Source: Burkholderiaceae bacterium
Lineage (GTDB): Bacteria; Pseudomonadota; Gammaproteobacteria; Burkholderiales; Burkholderiaceae_E
Length of the DNA: 64,000 nucleotides
Reading direction: 5' to 3'
Assembly: GCA_023954135.1 (NCBI GenBank)
Contig: JAMLIN010000017.1
Span: 1 to 64,000, forward strand
The translations under genes were made by a program, and so were the position numbers. Each line of letters begins with the position of its first letter. Within the stretch, counting starts at the first letter, position 1. Below the pieces are notes generated by a model, which saw nothing but the letters and a program-made list of their open reading frames with translations, did no database searches and was not told the origin of the DNA. This document shows positions 9,996-29,556 of the stretch, piece by piece.

Positions 9996-10946
9996 ATGAC
10001 GCCACACGAACTCAAGTCGCGCCTGCGCATCCCGGTCATCGGATCGCCGCTGTTCATCATCTCCAATCCCGATCTCGTCATCGCCCAGTGCAAGGCCGGC
10101 ATCGTCGGATCCTTTCCGGCGCTCAATGCGCGACCGGCGGAACTTCTCGAGGAGTGGCTGCAACGCATCACCAGCGAGCTCGACGCCCACAATCAGGCCA
10201 ATCCGGATCGACCGGCCGCGCCCTTCGCGGTCAACCAGATCGTGCACAAGTCGAACGTCCGGCTCGAGCACGACCTCGAGCTGTGCGTGAAGTACAAGGT
10301 ACCGCTGGTGATCACCTCGCTCGGCGCGCGTCCGGACCTGAACGAGGCGGTCCACAGCTACGGCGGCATGGTCATGCACGACGTGATCAACCAGAAGTTC
10401 GCCCACAAGGCGATCGAGAAGGGCGCCGACGGACTGATCCTCGTCGCCGCCGGCGCCGGCGGCCATGCCGGCACCCAGTCGCCTTTCGCCCTCGTGCAGG
10501 AAACCCGCGCATGGTTCGACGGCCCGATCGCCCTTTCGGGTTCCATCGCCAACGGCGGCGCGGTCCTCGCGGCACAGGCGATGGGAGCCGACTTCGCCTA
10601 CATCGGATCGGCCTTCATCGCGACGCACGAAGCCAACGCGAACGAGCGACACAAGCAGGCCATCGTCGATGCCACCGCGCAGGACATCATCTATTCGAAC
10701 CTGTTCACCGGCGTGCACGGCAACTACCTGCGCGCATCGATCGCCGCCACCGGGCTCGACCCCGACAATCTCCCGTCGGGAGACCCGAGCCAGATGAACT
10801 TCGAGACCGGCAAACCCAAGGCCTGGAAGGACATCTGGGGCTGCGGACAGGGGATCGGGGTGATCGACGAAGTCCGCCCGGCCGCCGAGCTGGTCGACAG
10901 GCTCGCCGCGGAGTACGCAGCGACGCGAGCGCGCCTGCTCGGCTGA
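9996..10946 (+). CDS. Nitronate monooxygenase / 2-nitropropane dioxygenase family FMN enzyme
   Basis: A 316-residue TIM-barrel flavoprotein. Family motifs are the N-terminal IPVIGSPLFIISNPDLV, the phosphate-binding region ILVAAGAGGHAGTQSPF, and SGSIANGGAVLAAQAMGADFAYIGSAFI, which holds the FMN. The GGHAGT segment contains the histidine commonly used as base in this family. These enzymes oxidise propionate-3-nitronate or related nitronates; some family members have other substrates, so the exact role is not fixed. The ATG at 9996 has no obvious ribosome-binding site, but upstream codons give no family sequence. It stands alone between two terminators. Confidence 0.85.
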   Translation: MTPHELKSRLRIPVIGSPLFIISNPDLVIAQCKAGIVGSFPALNARPAELLEEWLQRITSELDAHNQANPDRPAAPFAVNQIVHKSNVRLEHDLELCVKYKVPLVITSLGARPDLNEAVHSYGGMVMHDVINQKFAHKAIEKGADGLILVAAGAGGHAGTQSPFALVQETRAWFDGPIALSGSIANGGAVLAAQAMGADFAYIGSAFIATHEANANERHKQAIVDATAQDIIYSNLFTGVHGNYLRASIAATGLDPDNLPSGDPSQMNFETGKPKAWKDIWGCGQGIGVIDEVRPAAELVDRLAAEYAATRARLLG

Positions 10947-10988
10947 GCCCGCGACCGCGACCGCTCGAACGGTCGCCCTGCTCCGACG

Positions 10989-11020
10989 AATGGCGCCTCG
11001 CGGCGCCATTTTTCATTTTC
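10989..11020 (+). terminator. Rho-independent terminator after the nitronate monooxygenase gene
   Basis: AATGGCGCC (10989-10997), loop TCGC, then GGCGCCATT (11002-11010), followed by TTTCATTTTC. Perfect 9-base arms. Confidence 0.85.
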
Positions 11021-11205
11021 GTTGCAAGGCGCGGCGACGCGCCATCGCGTGACTCATGCCGCGCCATCCGCCGTCCCGATCTGCGCGGCGGTCACGCCGA
11101 TTGCGGCCAATACGTAGGTTCGATGCAGCACGACCTGCCGCCAGTCCCTCGGCTGCGACCGTTCATGACTTCCGGCCTCGGTCGATACCACCCTCGTCGC
11201 TAATC

Positions 11206-11280
11206 TGCCGTGAACAAATTCACGGCACGTCGTGTCTCCCAGCCAGGTGAGCAACCTCCTCTGCTTCACTGGAGACCAAA
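11206..11280 (+). ncRNA. Structured 5' leader with Shine-Dalgarno-sequestering hairpin, copy 1
   Basis: Stem 1 is TGCCGTGA (11206-11213) with TCACGGCA (11220-11227) and a 6-base loop. Stem 2 pairs GTCTCC (11234-11239) with GGAGAC (11271-11276), and GGTGAG (11246-11251) with TTCACT (11265-11270) using two G-U pairs. The GGAG of stem 2 is the only credible ribosome-binding site for the TTG at 11281, so the folded form would block translation. The same two stems precede the next gene. The stretch 11021-11205 upstream shows no gene or recognised signal. Confidence 0.55.
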
Positions 11281-12525
11281 TTGGCGACGAAAGCAGTAAC
11301 TACGTACGTTGCGAAAGCATCGGACGCGAACGGACACGCCAAAGCGCGGTTCAAACGATTCATCTCGCTGTCGTTCATCACGATGGCATCCGCGGCCCTC
11401 GTGGCCTGCGGTGGTGGTGGCGGCGGCTCGGCCAGTGGCGGATCCGGCACTTCGCTCGACCTGATCGGCACCTCCGTCGACGGGTCCGGAATCAACGCGA
11501 CGATTCCGCCGAAAGCGACCAATGTCGGCGACGCGGACTCGCCTGCCGGATCGGCCGTCGATCCGGGCCCGACCGACACCTCGAAGGACTCGAGCTCATC
11601 GAGCTCGCCCAGCCTCGGCGCGCAGGGAGGAAGCCCGTCGTCGGCCCAGACCGACTTCCTCGCCCGTCCGTTCGCGGCGGATTCCCCGTGGAACCAGCCG
11701 ATCCCCTCGAACGCGACCTATCGCAGCAGCGATCCACGCACGACGTCGCTGCGCAGCAGCTCGCCCTTCGGCGTCAACACCAGCAACTGGACCATCTGGG
11801 TCTGGCATGCCAAGGCCACCGATCCCACCGTCACCATCAACGTCTCGGTGCGCCACCTCACCAGCTCCGGCAACGCCAACGCCGGTGACGTCACCATCCG
11901 GATGCCGGTAGACGCTCATCCCGATCCGGCCAATGATTCCCACATGGTCGTCATCGACCCCGACGGCAAGCATGCCCACGAGTTCTGGTACGTCAAGAAA
12001 GGCGGGAGCTCGTACACCGCGGTGTCCTACGCCAAGGTCCCCCTGGACGGCAGCGGGGTCAACATCAGCGGCTACGCCGCCCACAACCCCGACTACTTCA
12101 CCTACGGCTGGGGTGCCACCCGCGCCTACGGCGGCTCGCAGCTCGGCGGCCTCATCCGCAAGGGCGAGGCTACCCAGGGGCCGATCGAGCATGCCATCGC
12201 GGTCGCGATCCCGGCGCGCTATCTCGGCGGCCGCGCCGTCTGGCCCGCCACCAGCGACGACCAGTCGTCGGACTACGCCGGGGTCATCCCGATGGGCACC
12301 CGCTTCGCGATCCCGCCCGACATCAACCTCGACTCCCTGGGGCTGTCGCCCGCTCACCTGCGACTTGCCCGGGCCCTGCAGAAGTACGGCCTGATCGTGG
12401 TCGACAAGTCGGGCTCGCCCTGCATGTACGCCGAGGGGCTCGAAGCGCAGGCCGACGGCCATGCGCTCAACGCGAACCGATCGCAGATGGCACTGATCCA
12501 CAGCCTGCTCACCGTCGTCGAGTAG
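11281..12525 (+). CDS. Exopolysaccharide-locus lipoprotein, copy 1 (function unknown)
   Basis: A 414-residue predicted lipoprotein with a TTG start; GGAG lies six bases upstream within a hairpin. The signal peptide ends in a lipobox (ALVAC, then a run of glycines), so the mature protein is membrane-anchored. A Ser/Gly/Asp-rich linker of about 80 residues leads to a roughly 285-residue globular domain beginning RPFAADSPWNQPIP, with GWGATRAYGGSQLGGLIR and a C-terminal LGLSPAHLRLARALQKYGL. The domain resembles secreted proteins of unknown function that I cannot name precisely; a carbohydrate-binding or lyase role near the polysaccharide genes is only a guess. The domain is almost identical to that of the next gene. 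Confidence 0.75.
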   Translation: MATKAVTTYVAKASDANGHAKARFKRFISLSFITMASAALVACGGGGGGSASGGSGTSLDLIGTSVDGSGINATIPPKATNVGDADSPAGSAVDPGPTDTSKDSSSSSSPSLGAQGGSPSSAQTDFLARPFAADSPWNQPIPSNATYRSSDPRTTSLRSSSPFGVNTSNWTIWVWHAKATDPTVTINVSVRHLTSSGNANAGDVTIRMPVDAHPDPANDSHMVVIDPDGKHAHEFWYVKKGGSSYTAVSYAKVPLDGSGVNISGYAAHNPDYFTYGWGATRAYGGSQLGGLIRKGEATQGPIEHAIAVAIPARYLGGRAVWPATSDDQSSDYAGVIPMGTRFAIPPDINLDSLGLSPAHLRLARALQKYGLIVVDKSGSPCMYAEGLEAQADGHALNANRSQMALIHSLLTVVE

Positions 12526-12528
12526 ACA
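11664..12528 (+). repeat. 865-bp direct repeat, copy 1
   Basis: Matches 13371-14235 at a constant offset of 1707 bases. I found no difference from 11664 to 12245. From 12246 to the stop codons there are about 16 substitutions, mostly silent. It encodes the shared C-terminal domain of the two lipoproteins. Confidence 0.95.
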
Positions 12529-12571
12529 CTTCCCCACCGGCACGCCGCCTGTGGCGGCGCGCACCCCGAGC

Positions 12572-12596
12572 AACGGCGCCTGCGGGCGCCGTTTTC
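12572..12596 (+). terminator. Rho-independent terminator after lipoprotein copy 1
   Basis: AACGGCGCC (12572-12580), loop TGCG, GGCGCCGTT (12585-12593), then TTCC. It separates the two lipoprotein transcripts, which implies that copy 2 has its own promoter. Confidence 0.75.
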
Positions 12597-12692
12597 CATG
12601 GGCCTGCGGCGCATGCGCAGTGCGCCGCTCGTCCCGCCACCACCGCCACCCATCGCCTCGCCGCTCGGCCACTATCATGCGCGCCGCTAGCC

Positions 12693-12780
12693 TGCCGTGA
12701 ACAAGATCACAAGAAAGATCACGGCATGTCCGCGTCTCCCAGCCAGGTGAGCAAGCTCCTCTGCCTCACCGGAGACGACA
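12693..12780 (+). ncRNA. Structured 5' leader with Shine-Dalgarno-sequestering hairpin, copy 2
   Basis: Stem 1 is TGCCGTGA (12693-12700) with TCACGGCA (12719-12726); its loop is 18 bases instead of 6. Stem 2 pairs GTCTCC (12734-12739) with GGAGAC (12771-12776), and GGTGAG (12746-12751) with CTCACC (12765-12770). The two G-U pairs of copy 1 are G-C here, so pairing is kept while sequence changes. GGAG lies six bases before the TTG at 12781. Confidence 0.55.
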
Positions 12781-14232
12781 TTGACGACAGTACCCTGCTC
12801 GAGCGCAACCAGCGCCCTGCATGCGAACGCATGCGCATCCACTGGCCTGCGGTTCCGCAGATTCTCCCGCCTCTGGCTCGTCATGATCGCCTGCGCCGGC
12901 ATGGCGGCCTGCGGCGACTTTGACAATGCTCCGGCCGCTTCCGGCGGATCGGACCCTGTGGTCCTCGATTCGGGCGCAGCCCTCGATCTGGGCACAACCT
13001 CGGTCCAGCAGACGGACATCAGCCAGACCAGGACAAGCCTGTCGAAGCCAACGCCTGCCGCCAGCATGGACAGCATCGCGAGCGTCTCGCCGCCACCCAC
13101 GGGTTCGAACCCTGCCAGCCCGCCGGCGGCGGCGAGCCCGGACAGCGGCAGTGATGCCATACGATCGTCGAACACGTCACGCGGGGAGCGCCAGTCGACC
13201 AGGCCTGCCGACGATCCGCCTCAGGCGGGCGCCACACCGGCAGGCGCCCCGGAAACAGTGGGCGACAGCGCATCGAACCAACCGGACGAGGATAGCTCCC
13301 CCGTCGATCGCGGCGAACCGAGCTCGCCACAGCAGCAGCCACCGGCCGCACAGCAGCACGACTACCTGAGCCGTCCGTTCGCGGCGGATTCCCCGTGGAA
13401 CCAGCCGATCCCCTCGAACGCGACCTATCGCAGCAGCGATCCACGCACGACGTCGCTGCGCAGCAGCTCGCCCTTCGGCGTCAACACCAGCAACTGGACC
13501 ATCTGGGTCTGGCATGCCAAGGCCACCGATCCCACCGTCACCATCAACGTCTCGGTGCGCCACCTCACCAGCTCCGGCAACGCCAACGCCGGTGACGTCA
13601 CCATCCGGATGCCGGTAGACGCTCATCCCGATCCGGCCAATGATTCCCACATGGTCGTCATCGACCCCGACGGCAAGCATGCCCACGAGTTCTGGTACGT
13701 CAAGAAAGGCGGGAGCTCGTACACCGCGGTGTCCTACGCCAAGGTCCCCCTGGACGGCAGCGGGGTCAACATCAGCGGCTACGCCGCCCACAACCCCGAC
13801 TACTTCACCTACGGCTGGGGTGCCACCCGCGCCTACGGCGGCTCGCAGCTCGGCGGCCTCATCCGCAAGGGCGAGGCTACCCAGGGGCCGATCGAGCATG
13901 CCATCGCGGTCGCGATCCCGGCGCGCTATCTCGGCGGCCGCGCCGTCTGGCCGGCCACCAGTGACGACCAGTCGTCGGACTACGCCGGAGTCATCCCGAT
14001 GGGCACCCGCTTCGCGATCCCGCCCGACATCAACCTCGACTCTCTGGGGCTCTCGCCCGCTCACCTGCGCCTTGCCAAGGCCCTGCAGAAGTACGGCCTG
14101 ATCGTGGTCGACAAGTCGGGCTCGCCCTGCATGTACGCCGAGGGGCTCGAAGCGCAGGCCGACGGCCACGCCCTCAACGCCAACATGTCCCAGATGGCGC
14201 TGATCCACAGCCTGCTCACCGTCGTCGAGTAG
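12781..14232 (+). CDS. Exopolysaccharide-locus lipoprotein, copy 2 (function unknown)
   Basis: A 483-residue predicted lipoprotein with a TTG start and the same leader structure as copy 1. The signal segment ends in a GMAAC lipobox. The linker is longer (about 160 residues) and rich in Ser, Pro, Ala and Gln, with no clear similarity to the copy 1 linker. The C-terminal domain, from RPFAADSPWNQPIP to the end, is nearly identical to copy 1, with only two residue changes seen (Arg to Lys and Arg to Met near the C-terminus). The different linker length suggests the same domain is displayed at two distances from the membrane. Function unknown. Confidence 0.75.
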   Translation: MTTVPCSSATSALHANACASTGLRFRRFSRLWLVMIACAGMAACGDFDNAPAASGGSDPVVLDSGAALDLGTTSVQQTDISQTRTSLSKPTPAASMDSIASVSPPPTGSNPASPPAAASPDSGSDAIRSSNTSRGERQSTRPADDPPQAGATPAGAPETVGDSASNQPDEDSSPVDRGEPSSPQQQPPAAQQHDYLSRPFAADSPWNQPIPSNATYRSSDPRTTSLRSSSPFGVNTSNWTIWVWHAKATDPTVTINVSVRHLTSSGNANAGDVTIRMPVDAHPDPANDSHMVVIDPDGKHAHEFWYVKKGGSSYTAVSYAKVPLDGSGVNISGYAAHNPDYFTYGWGATRAYGGSQLGGLIRKGEATQGPIEHAIAVAIPARYLGGRAVWPATSDDQSSDYAGVIPMGTRFAIPPDINLDSLGLSPAHLRLAKALQKYGLIVVDKSGSPCMYAEGLEAQADGHALNANMSQMALIHSLLTVVE

Positions 14233-14399: not shown

Positions 14400-15878
14400 A
14401 TGACCGCGATCAGAACAGGCCCCAGGCTCCAGTCCTGGGCCGATGTCCTCGTACCGATCGGCTTCGCCGGTGCGGCGGCGCTCGTCGGGCTGGCGATCGC
14501 CGGCGGCAAGGTCACCCATATAGCGATCGTCCTCGGCGGCCTGCTCAGCCTGGTGCTGCTGCAGATGCCGGCCGTGGCGATGTGGCTGGTCCTGGTCGGG
14601 TCCCTCGCGATCATCGGCCCGGTCGCGTTCTTCATCCCCGCCCTCGACAAGATTCCCTGGCTGTTCGCCCTGCTGACCCTGTTCCTCGCGGGGGCCTCGG
14701 TGATCTACGCAGCGACGATGAATCGCTCGGCCAACGCGAGGATGCCGGCGTTCATTCCCCTGTTCGCCGCCTTCATCGCCTACGCGGCCGCCTCCATCCT
14801 CTGGAGCGACGGGATGCTCAACGAGGGGGCGTCGGGCCTCAAGCGGGTCGCCCAGGGCACGGGCGTGATGTTCGCTCTCGCAACCTATCCCTTCGCCAGC
14901 AAGAACGTGCGGCGCTGGATCCTGCTCATCCTCGTCATCTCGATCGCCCACCTGCCGATCGCGCTCTACCAGCGTCTGGAACTCGCGCAGGTGCTCGAAG
15001 GCGGGGCGGATGCGATCGTCGGCCTGCTCGAACTCGATCAGCGAGGCCGTGGCGCCTCGGGCGTCCTGGCCCTGATGCAGATGCTGGTCGCCGGCGCAAT
15101 CGTCGCCTTCGCCCGCGAATCCCTCCTCAAGTGGCCGGTCGCCGTCTTCCTGATCGGGCTCGTGCTGGCGCCGCTGATCTTCTCCGAGGTCAACGTCATC
15201 TTCATCCTGGCGCCGCTGGTGGTGATCACCGCCTACGCCGACCTGATCCGCAAGCGGCCGATGCTGCTCGTGTTCGGCCTGGGCATCTTCGCCGCCGGCT
15301 TCGTCATGCTGGGCAGCCTCTACCTCGTCTGGCAGCAGTCCGCCTGGGCCGGCGGCGAACAGATCTCGATGGAGAGGCGCCTCGAGAACGTCATCGCCTA
15401 CAACTTCGGGGACCGGGGCTACAACAATCAGGGCGATCTCAACCGCAAGACGGTCTTCACCTACTGGGCCGACAACCACGGCCTGCAGAATCCCGATGAA
15501 TGGGCCTTCGGCCATGGAGTCGGTTCGACCAACCTCTTCGGCGATGATTCCGTGCCGGTGCTCGCCGTCCGCCACGGCGGCAAGAGCCTCGGCCTGTCGA
15601 CGATCTCGCAATATCTCTGGGAACTCGGGATCGTCGGCACGGCCATCTTCCTGTTCGCCTGGTGGAGCGCCTTCACCACCGGGCTTAAGAACCTCCGACG
15701 CTCGACCCCGGGCTACTGGCGCGCGCTCGATCGCAGCCTGATCATCGCGATCGTCGTCCTCGGCATCGGTCTCGTCTACAACGCCTCGCTCAGCGGCATC
15801 CTCAGCGGCCAGGTCCTCGCCGGCCTGGTGCTCGGCCTGATCGCCTGGCGCACCCGTTTCTCCGAACCGTCGCGCTGA
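14400..15878 (+). CDS. Wzy / O-antigen-ligase-like polysaccharide polymerase membrane protein
   Basis: A 492-residue polytopic inner-membrane protein with about 11 hydrophobic segments. A large periplasmic loop (about 310-395) contains RRLENVIAYNFGDRGYNNQ and ends before a final group of helices, the usual layout of the Wzy/WaaL (O-antigen ligase) superfamily. Proteins of this type join polysaccharide repeat units or ligate glycans in the periplasm. Its position between lipoproteins and glycosyltransferases supports a role in exopolysaccharide polymerisation. Sequence conservation in this superfamily is low, so polymerase versus ligase cannot be told apart. The ATG at 14400 lacks a strong ribosome-binding site. 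Confidence 0.75.
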   Translation: MTAIRTGPRLQSWADVLVPIGFAGAAALVGLAIAGGKVTHIAIVLGGLLSLVLLQMPAVAMWLVLVGSLAIIGPVAFFIPALDKIPWLFALLTLFLAGASVIYAATMNRSANARMPAFIPLFAAFIAYAAASILWSDGMLNEGASGLKRVAQGTGVMFALATYPFASKNVRRWILLILVISIAHLPIALYQRLELAQVLEGGADAIVGLLELDQRGRGASGVLALMQMLVAGAIVAFARESLLKWPVAVFLIGLVLAPLIFSEVNVIFILAPLVVITAYADLIRKRPMLLVFGLGIFAAGFVMLGSLYLVWQQSAWAGGEQISMERRLENVIAYNFGDRGYNNQGDLNRKTVFTYWADNHGLQNPDEWAFGHGVGSTNLFGDDSVPVLAVRHGGKSLGLSTISQYLWELGIVGTAIFLFAWWSAFTTGLKNLRRSTPGYWRALDRSLIIAIVVLGIGLVYNASLSGILSGQVLAGLVLGLIAWRTRFSEPSR

Positions 15879-15943: not shown

Positions 15944-16423
15944 TCAGGCGAAGATGAACTCGCGTACCGCCCGGACCAGGGCGATACGCGTATCCGACTC
16001 GAAGTCGCCGACACCGTGCGAACCGACCACCTCGTCGATCTTCGCGGCGAGCTCGGTCTCCGTCTCGACGATGTGCACCCCGGGCCGCCCGGCCAGCCAC
16101 CTGGCGGTCGCCTGCTGATGGCGACTGGTGACCTCCTGCAGCTCCATCTGTCGCGGCAGCATCACCAGCGGCTTGCACAGCTCCGACGCGGTGATCACCG
16201 TCCCGATCCCGACATGGGACACCACGACATCGGCCTGCTCGAACATGCTGCGATACTCGGCCGGGGTCATCATCTGCCGGCTCTCCATGTGGGCAGGCCG
16301 ATGACGGGTATCGCCGATCTGCGCGAAGGCCTCGATATCCGGACGCGCAGCCACGAAATCATCGATCGTCCGCACGAGGCGATCGAAGGGCAGCATCGAA
16401 CCCACCGTCACGAAGAGCTTCAC
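15944..16423 (-). CDS. Alg13-like catalytic subunit of a split glycosyltransferase (PssE type)
   Basis: A 159-residue protein with a GTG start at 16423 that overlaps the stop codon of the Alg14-like gene by four bases (GTGA). It begins KLFVTVGSMLPFDRLV and carries the C-terminal nucleotide-sugar-binding half of a GT-B enzyme: VVVSHVGIGTVITASELCKPLVMLPR, then RHQQATARWLA. This matches the Alg13/PssE family, which needs its membrane partner Alg14/PssD to transfer a sugar to a lipid-linked acceptor. Sugar specificity is unknown; bacterial pairs often transfer glucuronic acid or glucose in exopolysaccharide assembly. Confidence 0.85.
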   Translation of the reverse strand: MKLFVTVGSMLPFDRLVRTIDDFVAARPDIEAFAQIGDTRHRPAHMESRQMMTPAEYRSMFEQADVVVSHVGIGTVITASELCKPLVMLPRQMELQEVTSRHQQATARWLAGRPGVHIVETETELAAKIDEVVGSHGVGDFESDTRIALVRAVREFIFA

Positions 16424-16875
16424 AGCACGCTGCCCCGGTAATGAGGCCCGTCCGGCTTGGCCAGATGCGACCATTGCGTCAGCCAGAGATGGGCGGCGCG
16501 GCCCGCCTTGAGACCCGACAGCGACATCTCCTCGATGTTGGCAACGCTGTCGATCCATACGGTACGGACCCCCAGCAACCTGGCCATGCGCAGCGCCAGC
16601 ATGCCCGGCGCCGATCCGGTGGTCACCAGTACCCCGGGCCGCTCGCGCAGCAGGATCCAGGCCAGGCGCGCGACGGTCGCGACGATCTTCCACTTGTGCA
16701 GGCGGCTGACGTCGGGAATCGCGTAGAAGCGGTGTCCGGCGACATCGTCCCGATACATGTCCTTCACGCTGACATAGGCGACATCGCAGCCCTCGAAGGC
16801 TTCGCGGATCCGCATCAGCTCGGTCCAGTGGCCGCCGCCCGAAGCGACGGCGAGGATGCGTGGCGCACCGCTCAT
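16420..16875 (-). CDS. Alg14-like membrane-anchoring subunit of a split glycosyltransferase (PssD type)
   Basis: A 151-residue protein starting at the ATG at 16875, which overlaps the preceding GT4 gene (ATGA). The N-terminus ILAVASGGGHWTELMRI is the diagnostic Alg14/PssD loop, followed by a hydrophobic segment near VARLAWILLRERPGVLVTTG and SAPGMLALRMARLLGVRTVWIDS. It supplies the acceptor-binding N-terminal half and recruits the Alg13-like partner, encoded next with a 4-bp overlap. Tight coupling suggests equal expression of the two halves. Confidence 0.85.
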   Translation of the reverse strand: MSGAPRILAVASGGGHWTELMRIREAFEGCDVAYVSVKDMYRDDVAGHRFYAIPDVSRLHKWKIVATVARLAWILLRERPGVLVTTGSAPGMLALRMARLLGVRTVWIDSVANIEEMSLSGLKAGRAAHLWLTQWSHLAKPDGPHYRGSVL

Positions 16876-18149
16876 GTCCGCCCCCTCGAGACATCGGCGT
16901 AGAGCTGCTCCAGCCGGGGCAGGACGGCCTCGCGCGAGAAGGACTCCATCACCTGATCGCGCCCGGCATCGCCCATGCGCTGGCGCAGTCCGGCGTCGCC
17001 GGCGAGCTCGACGAGCGAACGGGTGAGCGCCGGCACGTCGCCGGCCTCGATCAGGAATCCGTCGGTGCCGTCGCGAATCAGCTCGGGGATGCCGCCGACG
17101 GTGGTCGAAACCACCGGGACGCCCCAGCTCATCGCCTCGAGCAGGCTGATCGGCAGGCCCTCGTTGTACGACGGCAGCACGAAGATGTCGGCGGCGGCCA
17201 GTAGCTCGTCCTTGCGATCGCCGCCGACCCAGCCGAGAAACTCGACCGAATCGCCAAGGCCGAGCTCGGCGGCGCGTGCCCGCGCCTGCTCGACTTCGCC
17301 ATTGCCGCCGATCAGCAGCTTCATGCCGGGCCGGGCGGCCAGCGCCTTCGCGAAGGCGGGCAGGAGATCGTAGACCCCCTTGCGATGACCGATGATGCCG
17401 AGAAAGAGCACCTTGACCGGCCCGTCGCCGGGACGCCGGGCCTCGATCGCCGGCATCCGGACATAGTTGTGGAGCACGAAGACACGGGCGTCCGGCGCAA
17501 CCGAACGCACCCAGTCGGCCCAGCTCGGCGAGAGCACCACCACCGCCGAATAGCGCTCGAGGATCCAGCTGATCACACGCCGGATCGGGGCGGCCTGCGC
17601 GTCGTAGAAGACCTTCATCTCGGCGCCGTGCAGATGAAAGAGCACCGGAATGCCACGGGCGCGCGCAAGCAGTCCGAAGATCGACTTGCGCCAGAAGCTG
17701 CCGAGCTCGGCGGCATGGCAATGCACCAGGCTGACCCGGTGCGTCAGGATCTCGACGATGAATCGGAGGATCTCGACCGCCGCGAGGTAGAGGCGCCGCA
17801 CGAGACTGCCTTCGTCGTGCGGGGAGAACAGCCGCACGCCCCAGCGCTCGAAGAGGCCATCGAGCCGGTAACTCTCGATCACCGACAACATGCCGCCGCG
17901 CCCCGCGGTGCAGACCATCAGGACCCGTCGCGCCGTGCCCGTGTCGGCCCCTGTTCCCGTCGACACGGCCGGTCCGGGCGCTTCCTGCTTCCGGGCGGCC
18001 CCGGTTCCTTCCTTGCGGGCGGCACCAGCCTCTCCCCGGAGAGCGGGCTCGGTCCTTGGACCGGCCGTCCCGGGTGATTCGACCCGGTCCCTCCGGTCGG
18101 TGCCGCGCCGCGCATCGGTCGCGATCCCGGCATCCGGCGTACGGGTCAT
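16872..18149 (-). CDS. GT4-family glycosyltransferase
   Basis: A 425-residue GT-B enzyme. After an unusual N-terminal extension of about 75 residues rich in Ala, Gly, Thr and Arg, the catalytic core begins RRVLMVCTAGRGGMLSVIE. The C-terminal half has VKVLFLGIIGHRKGVYDLLPA, then VLPSYNEGLPISLLEAMSWG, which holds the EX7E motif that binds the nucleotide-sugar diphosphate. The ATG at 18149 was chosen because it is the first in-frame ATG after the neighbouring stop; a later start that removes the low-complexity part cannot be excluded. It sits 10 bp after the upstream GT4 gene and overlaps the next by four bases. Confidence 0.85.
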   Translation of the reverse strand: MTRTPDAGIATDARRGTDRRDRVESPGTAGPRTEPALRGEAGAARKEGTGAARKQEAPGPAVSTGTGADTGTARRVLMVCTAGRGGMLSVIESYRLDGLFERWGVRLFSPHDEGSLVRRLYLAAVEILRFIVEILTHRVSLVHCHAAELGSFWRKSIFGLLARARGIPVLFHLHGAEMKVFYDAQAAPIRRVISWILERYSAVVVLSPSWADWVRSVAPDARVFVLHNYVRMPAIEARRPGDGPVKVLFLGIIGHRKGVYDLLPAFAKALAARPGMKLLIGGNGEVEQARARAAELGLGDSVEFLGWVGGDRKDELLAAADIFVLPSYNEGLPISLLEAMSWGVPVVSTTVGGIPELIRDGTDGFLIEAGDVPALTRSLVELAGDAGLRQRMGDAGRDQVMESFSREAVLPRLEQLYADVSRGRT

Positions 18150-18159
18150 CGGCTCGGCC

Positions 18160-19401
18160 TCAGGCACGTTCAGTTTCTCCCGCCGGCACCACGGCCAGCA
18201 TCTCGTTGCGGACCAGGGTCGCAAGCCGGTCGTAGTTGCGATTCTCCAGCGCCCACTGTCGGCCTGCCTGGCCACGCCTGCGCGCCGCCTCGGGATCGGA
18301 CAGCAGCTCGATCATGGCGGCGGCGAAGGCATCGGGCTCGAGGGGGGTGCACAGCCCCCCGCCGCTGCGGCCGATCACGAATGCCTGGTCGGGCAGATCG
18401 TTGGCCACCACCGGCAGGCCGAGCGCCATGTATTCGACGGCCTTGGTCGGCGACGCGACGTCGTAGAGCACGCCGCGCGGACATGGCGAGAAGCCGACCC
18501 GGGCGGCGCGCACCAGCTGCCATGCCGTGGCCATGTCGAGCCAGCCGGTGAAGATCACCCGGGACGCGATGCCGAGCTCGCGTGCCAGTGTCTTGAGCTT
18601 CTCGATGTCGCCCGGCTCGTCGGCATTGCCGATGATCAGCAGCAGCGCCTCGGGCCGCACCCGCAAGACGGTGGCGAAGGCTTCCAGGGCCAGCTCGAGC
18701 CGGCGATTCTCCTCGACCGTGCCGAGGTAGACGACGGTTTCGAAAGTACGCGCCCGAGCCAGCCAGTCCGCCGCGGTGGGCTCGATGTCGGTATCGTCGC
18801 GCGCCATGATTCTCTCGATCGCTTCGCGATCGACGCCCATGGGGACCGGCACCGCATGCCGCATGCGGATACCCCGCGCCTGCAGGGTCCGCAGCATCTC
18901 GTCGCTCTGCACGAAGGCGATATCGGCTCGCGGCAGAACCACCTTGTAGAGTGTCCAGTAGCTGAGCAGGCCGCGGCCGTAGACGATCAGCCAGCGAAAC
19001 AGGCCGATCGAGGGGCCGCGCTCGCGGGCGAACTCGAGCGCGCTCTCGGGCAGCGGGAACGACATCCAGTAGGCGAACGGAACGCCGCGCAGCCGGGATA
19101 CGAGCCAGGCCCAGAGCGTGAACAGGGGCTTGTCGCGCACCAGCACCATGTCGTAGCGCGGGCCGATGCGCAGCAGCCCCCGGAAATCGTTCAGGAGCGC
19201 GGCAAGGTTGATCCGGAACCGTCCGCCGCTGGCAGGCGGCCCGAAGACCTCGCCACCGCCCCAGTCGACCTGCCGGCCGGGTTCCCGCAAGGTGACGAGA
19301 TCGGACGCGACGCCGAGACGGGACAGGAACTTGCCGAACAGCACCGTGACGTCGACACGGAAGGTCGGATGTCGTTCGCGGACGAAGAACAGGACTCGCA
19401 C
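18160..19401 (-). CDS. GT4-like glycosyltransferase
   Basis: A 413-residue GT-B glycosyltransferase with GTG start at 19401 and AGAGG upstream. Landmarks are VRERHPTF near the N-terminus, the interdomain segment VPVPMGVDREAIE, VVYLGTVEENRRLELALEAF at the start of the nucleotide-binding half, and SPTKAVEYMALGLPVVANDLPDQ, the family's sugar-nucleotide-binding loop. It is the first glycosyltransferase of the minus-strand set that continues with the second GT4 enzyme and the Alg14/Alg13 pair, so it probably adds a sugar in the same repeat unit. Donor and linkage are unknown. Confidence 0.8.
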   Translation of the reverse strand: MRVLFFVRERHPTFRVDVTVLFGKFLSRLGVASDLVTLREPGRQVDWGGGEVFGPPASGGRFRINLAALLNDFRGLLRIGPRYDMVLVRDKPLFTLWAWLVSRLRGVPFAYWMSFPLPESALEFARERGPSIGLFRWLIVYGRGLLSYWTLYKVVLPRADIAFVQSDEMLRTLQARGIRMRHAVPVPMGVDREAIERIMARDDTDIEPTAADWLARARTFETVVYLGTVEENRRLELALEAFATVLRVRPEALLLIIGNADEPGDIEKLKTLARELGIASRVIFTGWLDMATAWQLVRAARVGFSPCPRGVLYDVASPTKAVEYMALGLPVVANDLPDQAFVIGRSGGGLCTPLEPDAFAAAMIELLSDPEAARRRGQAGRQWALENRNYDRLATLVRNEMLAVVPAGETERA

Positions 19402-28638: not shown

Positions 28639-29556
28639 CTAGAAGCGCATCAGCGGCAGGTCGGGATCGGCGGGCGCGATCACCGGCTCCTGGTCGGGGC
28701 GCCGGTGACTGCCGCTTGCGGTGGGCGAGGGCATGGGCCGGGAATCGACCGGAGCGGCTGCCGGCATGCCGGGCGACGCGGCGTTCGCCGCGGCGGCGGC
28801 GCCGTCGGCTTGCGTCGGTACATCGAACCCGTGGGGGAGATCGGCCGCCACGACCAGCGAAGGATTGAGCTCGGTCAGGCGGACGGCGGTCTCCTCGCCG
28901 AAGCGCTGGGCAAGAACGTCGCGCGCGGCCCGCATCATCGGCGCACGGGCGCTCGCATCGGTTGCGCCGCTCGCGAGCACCGTGACCCGGCCGGCCTCGA
29001 TCAGGCGAAACGCGGTATCGCGCACCTGGGTGCCGTACCAGCCGAGCACCGAGCCGGCGTCGACCTGGATCAGGCAGCCGTCGCAGAGGAACAGCTCGAG
29101 GGCGGCAGGCGAACGCACCACGCCCGGGTTGCGCTCGGGGTGGGCAAGCATCGGCAGCACACCACGTGCGGCCATCTCCTGAACGGCGGTGATCGCGCCG
29201 ATCGGGATGAACTCCTCCGCCCAGCGCAGGAGCACGACGCGGCGCCCCTCCCACTCGCCGACGAAGGGAACCTCGCGGCGATCGAGGGCGCCGATGACGC
29301 CCGGCCCATGGACGAGCTCGGCGCCGAGCCGCAATCGCAGGCGGATCCCGCGGCGCTCCATGAGCTGGACGAACGCCGCGAACTTCTTCTCGAGCTCGAC
29401 GCGCAGGACCGGTGCACGCCCGGGGTCGAGGGTCGGTGTCAGCACCACCAGCCGTACGCCATCGGCTTCGGCCCTGCGCAGCATCAGCAGGGCCTCGTCG
29501 AGGCTGTCGGGGCCGTCGTCCACCCAGGGAAGATAGTGTCCGTGAAGATCGATCAC
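28639..29556 (-). CDS. CpsB/CapC-type PHP tyrosine phosphatase homologue with lost metal ligands
   Basis: A 305-residue PHP-domain protein with GTG start at 29556 and AAGGA upstream. The N-terminus IDLHGHYLPWVDDGP keeps His5 and His7, GAELVHG keeps a Glu, and LAHPERN keeps the later His. The conserved His of the TPHH/TSHRR motif is replaced (LTPTLDP, positions 39-45), the IEF/LIE glutamate is not seen, and the ASDxHN aspartate and histidine are replaced by ASGATD. CpsB enzymes use three metal ions bound by these residues to dephosphorylate capsule tyrosine kinases. The protein may be inactive, altered or regulatory. It also has a 70-residue Pro/Ala-rich tail. Confidence 0.7.
   Translation of the reverse strand: MIDLHGHYLPWVDDGPDSLDEALLMLRRAEADGVRLVVLTPTLDPGRAPVLRVELEKKFAAFVQLMERRGIRLRLRLGAELVHGPGVIGALDRREVPFVGEWEGRRVVLLRWAEEFIPIGAITAVQEMAARGVLPMLAHPERNPGVVRSPAALELFLCDGCLIQVDAGSVLGWYGTQVRDTAFRLIEAGRVTVLASGATDASARAPMMRAARDVLAQRFGEETAVRLTELNPSLVVAADLPHGFDVPTQADGAAAAANAASPGMPAAAPVDSRPMPSPTASGSHRRPDQEPVIAPADPDLPLMRF

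Follow-up and report, generated by a model that had tools for sequence, protein, structure and literature searches.

Within a 64,000-nucleotide stretch of Burkholderiaceae DNA, here analysed whole and called the window (contig JAMLIN010000017.1), two tandem genes for predicted lipoproteins beside an exopolysaccharide locus are preceded by the same leader, in which the Shine-Dalgarno (SD) sequence is predicted to be base-paired inside a hairpin that follows an operator-like palindrome. The leaders (copy 1, 11206-11280; copy 2, 12693-12780; both on the + strand) each end at a TTG start codon, from which copy 1 (11281-12525, + strand) encodes 414 amino acids and copy 2 (12781-14232, + strand) 483. 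Such a leader is likely of the SD-sequestering kind, placed behind a likely operator. The most likely reading of its function, which we put forward tentatively, is that the hairpin damps translation and the palindrome binds a regulator. Transcription would start at or near the palindrome, to which a CRP-type regulator would bind through its GTGA-N6-TCAC core; the leader of both genes would then form a hairpin in which the ribosome-binding site is paired, so that both predicted lipoproteins are translated at a low level, and this damper might be opened by the ribosome, a protein, an RNA or a ligand.

The arrangement and its letters were verified in the sequence of both copies. A first-pass annotation of the same DNA had described two successive stems before each gene, and its stems, coordinates and letters were all found correct. 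In copy 1, the palindrome TGCCGTGA-N6-TCACGGCA (11206-11227, + strand), to be read either as stem 1 or as a CRP-type operator, has its arms at 11206-11213 and 11220-11227 and a loop of 6 bases. Hairpin 2 (11234-11276, + strand) pairs GTCTCC (11234-11239) with GGAGAC (11271-11276) and, further in, GGTGAG (11246-11251) with TTCACT (11265-11270); the SD GGAG lies inside it at 11271-11274 (+ strand), upstream of the TTG at 11281. In copy 2, TGCCGTGA and TCACGGCA recur at 12693-12726 (+ strand; arms 12693-12700 and 12719-12726) around an 18-base loop, 12 bases longer than that of copy 1. Its hairpin 2 (12734-12776, + strand) pairs GTCTCC (12734-12739) with GGAGAC (12771-12776) and GGTGAG (12746-12751) with CTCACC (12765-12770), enclosing the SD GGAG at 12771-12774 (+ strand) before the TTG at 12781. 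The 43-base core differs between the copies at 3 positions. Its pattern, GTCTCCCAGCCAGGTGAGCAANCTCCTCTGCNTCACNGGAGAC, has 2 matches in the window, where shuffled sequence would give 0.00, and within the organism's own genome (4.36 Mb) neither a DNA search nor a covariance model returned any but these two leaders.

In the predicted fold, the SD GGAG of both copies is paired within an arm of hairpin 2. Each whole leader is more stably folded than its dinucleotide shuffles (copy 1, z = -4.82, 0 of 200 shuffles as good; copy 2, z = -3.04, 1 of 200), and the consensus fold computed from both sequences for the stem 2 region beat 990 of 1000 column shuffles, 10 reaching it. Forcing the SD open was predicted to cost 8.0 kcal/mol in copy 1 and 7.7 kcal/mol in copy 2, against a median of 2.9. 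The comparison set consisted of the 51 genes bearing an SD out of 84 open reading frames, taken from the window plus three further regions of the genome. Under the first setting, both copies ranked highest of the 51, the next costs being 7.48 and 7.44, and when flank length and temperature were varied over 24 settings, the two were together among the top five in 18. The view that the SD is hidden in both copies thus holds as a prediction, and the occlusion is unusually strong among the genes compared.

Stem 1 could function in the DNA, as an operator, and not in the RNA. GTGA-N6-TCAC, the core read by CRP-type proteins, is present in both copies (11210-11223 and 12697-12710). The first-pass annotation had drawn attention to arms that stay constant while the loop grows from 6 to 18 bases. 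This is true of the letters, but copy 2 also offers the alternative GTGA-N6-TCAC at 12697-12710, spaced as in copy 1; its 12 extra bases form a GATCAC repeat that leaves both this core and the outer arms intact. Directly 5' of each palindrome lies a hexamer of the form TAnnCT, a weak, putatively -10-like TAATCT in copy 1 (11201-11206, + strand) aligning with its presumptive counterpart TAGCCT in copy 2 (12688-12693, + strand). Because the hexamer ends where the palindrome begins, transcription could start inside the palindrome. The full promoter-palindrome pattern was found in the genome only before these two genes, apart from one match with 3 mismatches, and CGTGA-N6-TCACG has 8 genomic sites versus 1 for the control. 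Five HTH_Crp_2 genes of the genome score over the cut-off, and one of them (L088), of the CRP type, has SREMVSR in its recognition helix, a motif that we take to read GTGA.

The same stretch could alternatively act in the RNA, stem 1 being a 5' hairpin that stabilises the messenger while stem 2 tunes translation at a fixed level. The predicted fold of copy 1 does begin with a 9-bp stem closing a 4-base loop, but the very letters of that stem make up the operator-like core in both copies, and we regard this alternative as quite improbable. Some further sites and genes of the genome were noted on the way. One CGTGA-N6-TCACG site (L060, 1501-1516; G000:C23:54216-54231) stands directly 5' of another gene, presumably lipoprotein-like, which has CGGGGGGS after a signal stretch and whose own ribosome-binding site is also GGAGAC; another (L066) lies between two frames, one of which we take to be flippase-like. 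Two near-identical genes that we would call FNR-like (L085 and L086) occur on two contigs (G000:C89 and C110), both with a similar second frame after them; a duplication, a mixture of strains or the assembly could account for them.

Comparison of the two copies showed that resemblance is unevenly spread. The DNA for the C-terminal domain is near-identical (copy 1, 11653-12533, + strand; 861 of 882 bases, 582 of them, at 11664-12245, in one mismatch-free run); the stretch ends just past the stop codon, and its copy 2 counterpart just past 14232. The domains encoded are identical at 284 of 286 residues. A second genome probably has such a tandem pair too: the database homologues P0003 and P0005, which appear to share one contig, agree at 281 of 286, whereas identity across the two pairs is 84-86%. 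The C-domains thus evolve in concert, for which gene conversion is the simplest explanation, and this is confined to the one domain. The N-terminal part of copy 1, by contrast, groups by type, with 58 of 88 residues identical to P0005 and 81 of 116 to P0006 versus 52 of 120 to copy 2; that of copy 2 matches P0003 at 84 of 193 residues (44%), hardly above the 43% between the copies, with long divergent linkers.

Between these extremes lies the leader. Its spacer and stem 2 agree at 44 of 49 positions with one gap, which, set against the 582 mismatch-free bases, places it outside the recent conversion event. The sequence 5' of the palindrome agrees at 19 of 29 positions; the coding DNA after the start agrees at 79 of 112 aligned positions (26 gap columns), which is no more than the flanks give when aligned with gaps (46 of 62 and 70 of 101). 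The statement that the sequence after the start codon had diverged completely is therefore borne out for the DNA but not for the protein, as the N-termini still align (the 52 of 120 includes linkers). Likewise, of the suggestion that the leaders have been kept for their own sake, what stands is that they are conserved above flanks and coding DNA (44/49 versus 19/29), while an older conversion could still account for it.

Several observations weigh against a damping hairpin behind an operator. Taken alone, stem 2 does not stand out in copy 1, where 66 of 200 shuffles were as stable (z = -0.36), and is middling in copy 2 (10 of 200, z = -1.80). By SD opening cost, the lowest rank among the 51 genes in any of the 24 settings was 22 for copy 1 and 7 for copy 2. 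When the upstream sequence was shuffled, the observed cost was reached in 37 of 500 trials for copy 1 and 25 of 500 for copy 2, and with 40 upstream bases in 93 and 49 of 500. The copies are homologous, so that they do not count as two independent tests of the hairpin, and the 12 pairs of stem 2, followed in these two copies only, comprise 10 that are invariant and 2 with one-sided changes (G-U and G-C), none being changed on both sides. As to the operator, a consensus scan of 10900-12900 returned no promoter; bare GTGA-N6-TCAC is common in the genome, with 76 sites versus 10 for a backward control of different make-up; and the flanked palindrome occurred in 3 of 74 family genomes versus 5 of 74 for the backward control.

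Another possibility is that the leaders are alike by descent only, the genes having been duplicated together with promoter and 5' untranslated region (UTR), and the likeness upheld by promoter function and older conversion around a hairpin with no regulatory role. Concerted evolution of the C-domains here and in the probable second pair, the partly kept sequence 5' of the palindrome and the ordinary stability of stem 2 in copy 1 are all in keeping with it. It is less easily squared with a leader that lies outside the recent tract and is not identical between the copies, and with SD opening costs among the highest of the genes compared. We consider descent alone a possible explanation, though less probable than the damping hairpin.

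The first-pass annotation had taken the leader for an RNA switch or thermometer, in which stems 1 and 2 would form one regulated RNA whose SD opens on a signal. The better-than-shuffled fold of the whole leaders, the constancy of the stem 1 arms around loops of 6 and 18 bases, and the location of the SD within a paired arm are what speak for it. Predicted folding at different temperatures gives a thermometer no support: in the full leader, GGAG is predicted to stay paired from 5 to 60 °C, its mean unpaired probability reaching at most 0.014 in copy 1 and 0.005 in copy 2. Among the folds made, none freed the SD, save that of a copy 1 transcript cut at 11214, whose SD was predicted to open gradually, its unpaired probability going from about 0.12 to 0.36; in a copy 2 transcript from 12701, the predicted unpaired probability stayed at or below 0.006. 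Rfam, including its riboswitch and thermometer families, gave 0 matches at gathering scores within the window. The changes that keep pairing make a weak argument: two-sided changes are lacking, and in a simulation 20-35% of random triple changes in the core left every pair intact. With no convincing copy of the leader elsewhere (see below), the switch or thermometer reading is weak, and we consider it unlikely.

The kept letters might also reflect a conserved short coding frame (SPSQVS[NK]LLC[FL]TGD...) that runs over the gene start, with translational coupling as its role, and a frame of this kind is indeed open across the core in both copies. Its start differs, however: copy 1 has GTG at 11232 and copy 2 has ATG at 12726, and a 1-base indel lies between them. 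Of the 3 core changes, 2 alter the amino acid, and immediately past the gene start the frames diverge, which leaves this account very improbable. Terminator-like sites were found at 10988-11011 (+ strand) and 12734-12720 (minus strand), and none 3' of stem 2 on the + strand. A terminator, a leader peptide and a thermometer were each weighed as candidates and rated low.

A covariance model built from stem 2 (R1), run over 74 genomes of the family with Infernal's stricter filters, gave 17 matches at E values up to 1 in 14 genomes. Two of these were the window's own; the best of the others had an E value of 4.9e-4 for one genome. The 15 matches outside the window were taken as chance, the DNA of none having GTCTCC paired with GGAGAC. 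Applied to 24 loci from a contig collection, 13 other distant-homologue loci and the window, the model gave 14 weak extra matches (E 0.7 to 9.6). No convincing copy of the leader beyond this duplication was thus recovered from the 74 family genomes or the distant-homologue loci, an outcome that the first-pass annotation had named as counting against its own reading, though it takes away support without disproving the switch.

Close relatives were found as proteins (P0003-P0011), and none as DNA in the collections searched. A search that scored only the 7996 candidates with the most shared words found at least 37 homologous proteins. In the contig collection a single-protein query had no match, and an alignment query reached 24 loci at 25-39% identity, none close. 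Among the 74 family genomes, 12 besides the organism's own had weak matches (E up to 0.001), none of them close. Only the organism's own genome was matched in samples of the order (399 genomes, limit 1e-30), the class (369 genomes, limit 1e-30) and the phylum (398 genomes, limit 1e-40). Viral contigs held no close DNA homologue by protein or by leader pattern, and plasmids gave 10 records by protein, all below 60% identity, and none by leader DNA. A third, distant homologue (37%) is encoded in the organism's own genome (L017, G000:C48:38346-39164) and has no leader by the R1 model.

Neither open reading frame (414 and 483 amino acids) has a Pfam match at E up to 1. Both proteins begin with a signal-peptide-like stretch followed by what we take to be a lipobox (LVAC in copy 1, MAAC in copy 2), on which ground they are predicted to be lipoproteins. 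The TTG starts are supported by database homologues that begin at matching residues, P0006 (MATKAVT...) like copy 1 and P0003 (MTTT...) like copy 2. Against them, most other homologues and the window's own entries, P0001 and P0002, are annotated with later starts, where the gene caller probably passed over a TTG. A confident structural model of the C-domain (13357-14229; mean pLDDT 92.7) has no Foldseek match at E up to 0.001 and resembles MltA, an expansin and barwin-like proteins only weakly. Downstream, on the opposite strand, lie glycosyltransferase genes (15947-16894, 16875-18275 and 18163-19401), and a CpsB-type gene is found at 28642-29556, so that the region may fairly be called an exopolysaccharide locus. 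A 492-amino-acid protein without a Pfam match is encoded at 14400-15878, in the interval that separates the lipoprotein pair from the glycosyltransferases.

Were the damping hairpin confirmed, a short leader would control a family of surface proteins that has no Pfam name, and the pair would be a clear natural case of concerted evolution of one domain in tandem genes. It is doubtful, in our estimate, that the pair represents an undescribed two-layer leader, in which an operator and an SD-sequestering hairpin together precede tandem exopolysaccharide-locus lipoproteins with homogenised C-domains and distinct leaders and N-termini; if it did, one surface domain would be displayed from two separately tuned genes. 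The present evidence opens no new class of RNA regulation.

Among known systems, the palindrome invites comparison with the operators of CRP-type proteins, whose consensus is TGTGA-N6-TCACA; the flanks here differ, being TGCC and GGCA. Bcam1349 belongs to a family of the CRP/FNR type. This Burkholderia cenocepacia protein is described as a c-di-GMP responsive regulator of an exopolysaccharide cluster that binds the promoter DNA of its own cluster, aided by c-di-GMP (PMC3584217); a term search of the main text found no 'consensus', 'palindrom' or 'inverted repeat' by which the Bcam1349 site might be compared. The likeness to our case is that GTGA-N6-TCAC, as a putative operator, stands before genes adjacent to an exopolysaccharide locus in a genome that has CRP-type genes. 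Hairpins of the 5' UTR that sequester the SD, and RNA thermometers such as ROSE and fourU, are likewise known systems. With ROSE and fourU the leader shares pairing that hides the SD, and it differs in that the full leader is predicted to remain closed at all temperatures from 5 to 60 °C and in matching no Rfam family at its gathering score. The closer parallel is with the SD-sequestering 5' UTR hairpins, well known as a kind, in which, as in these leaders, a stable hairpin just 5' of the start codon carries the SD in its 3' arm. The present leader differs from them in being known from one gene pair alone, and is likely one more member of that kind instead of a new class.

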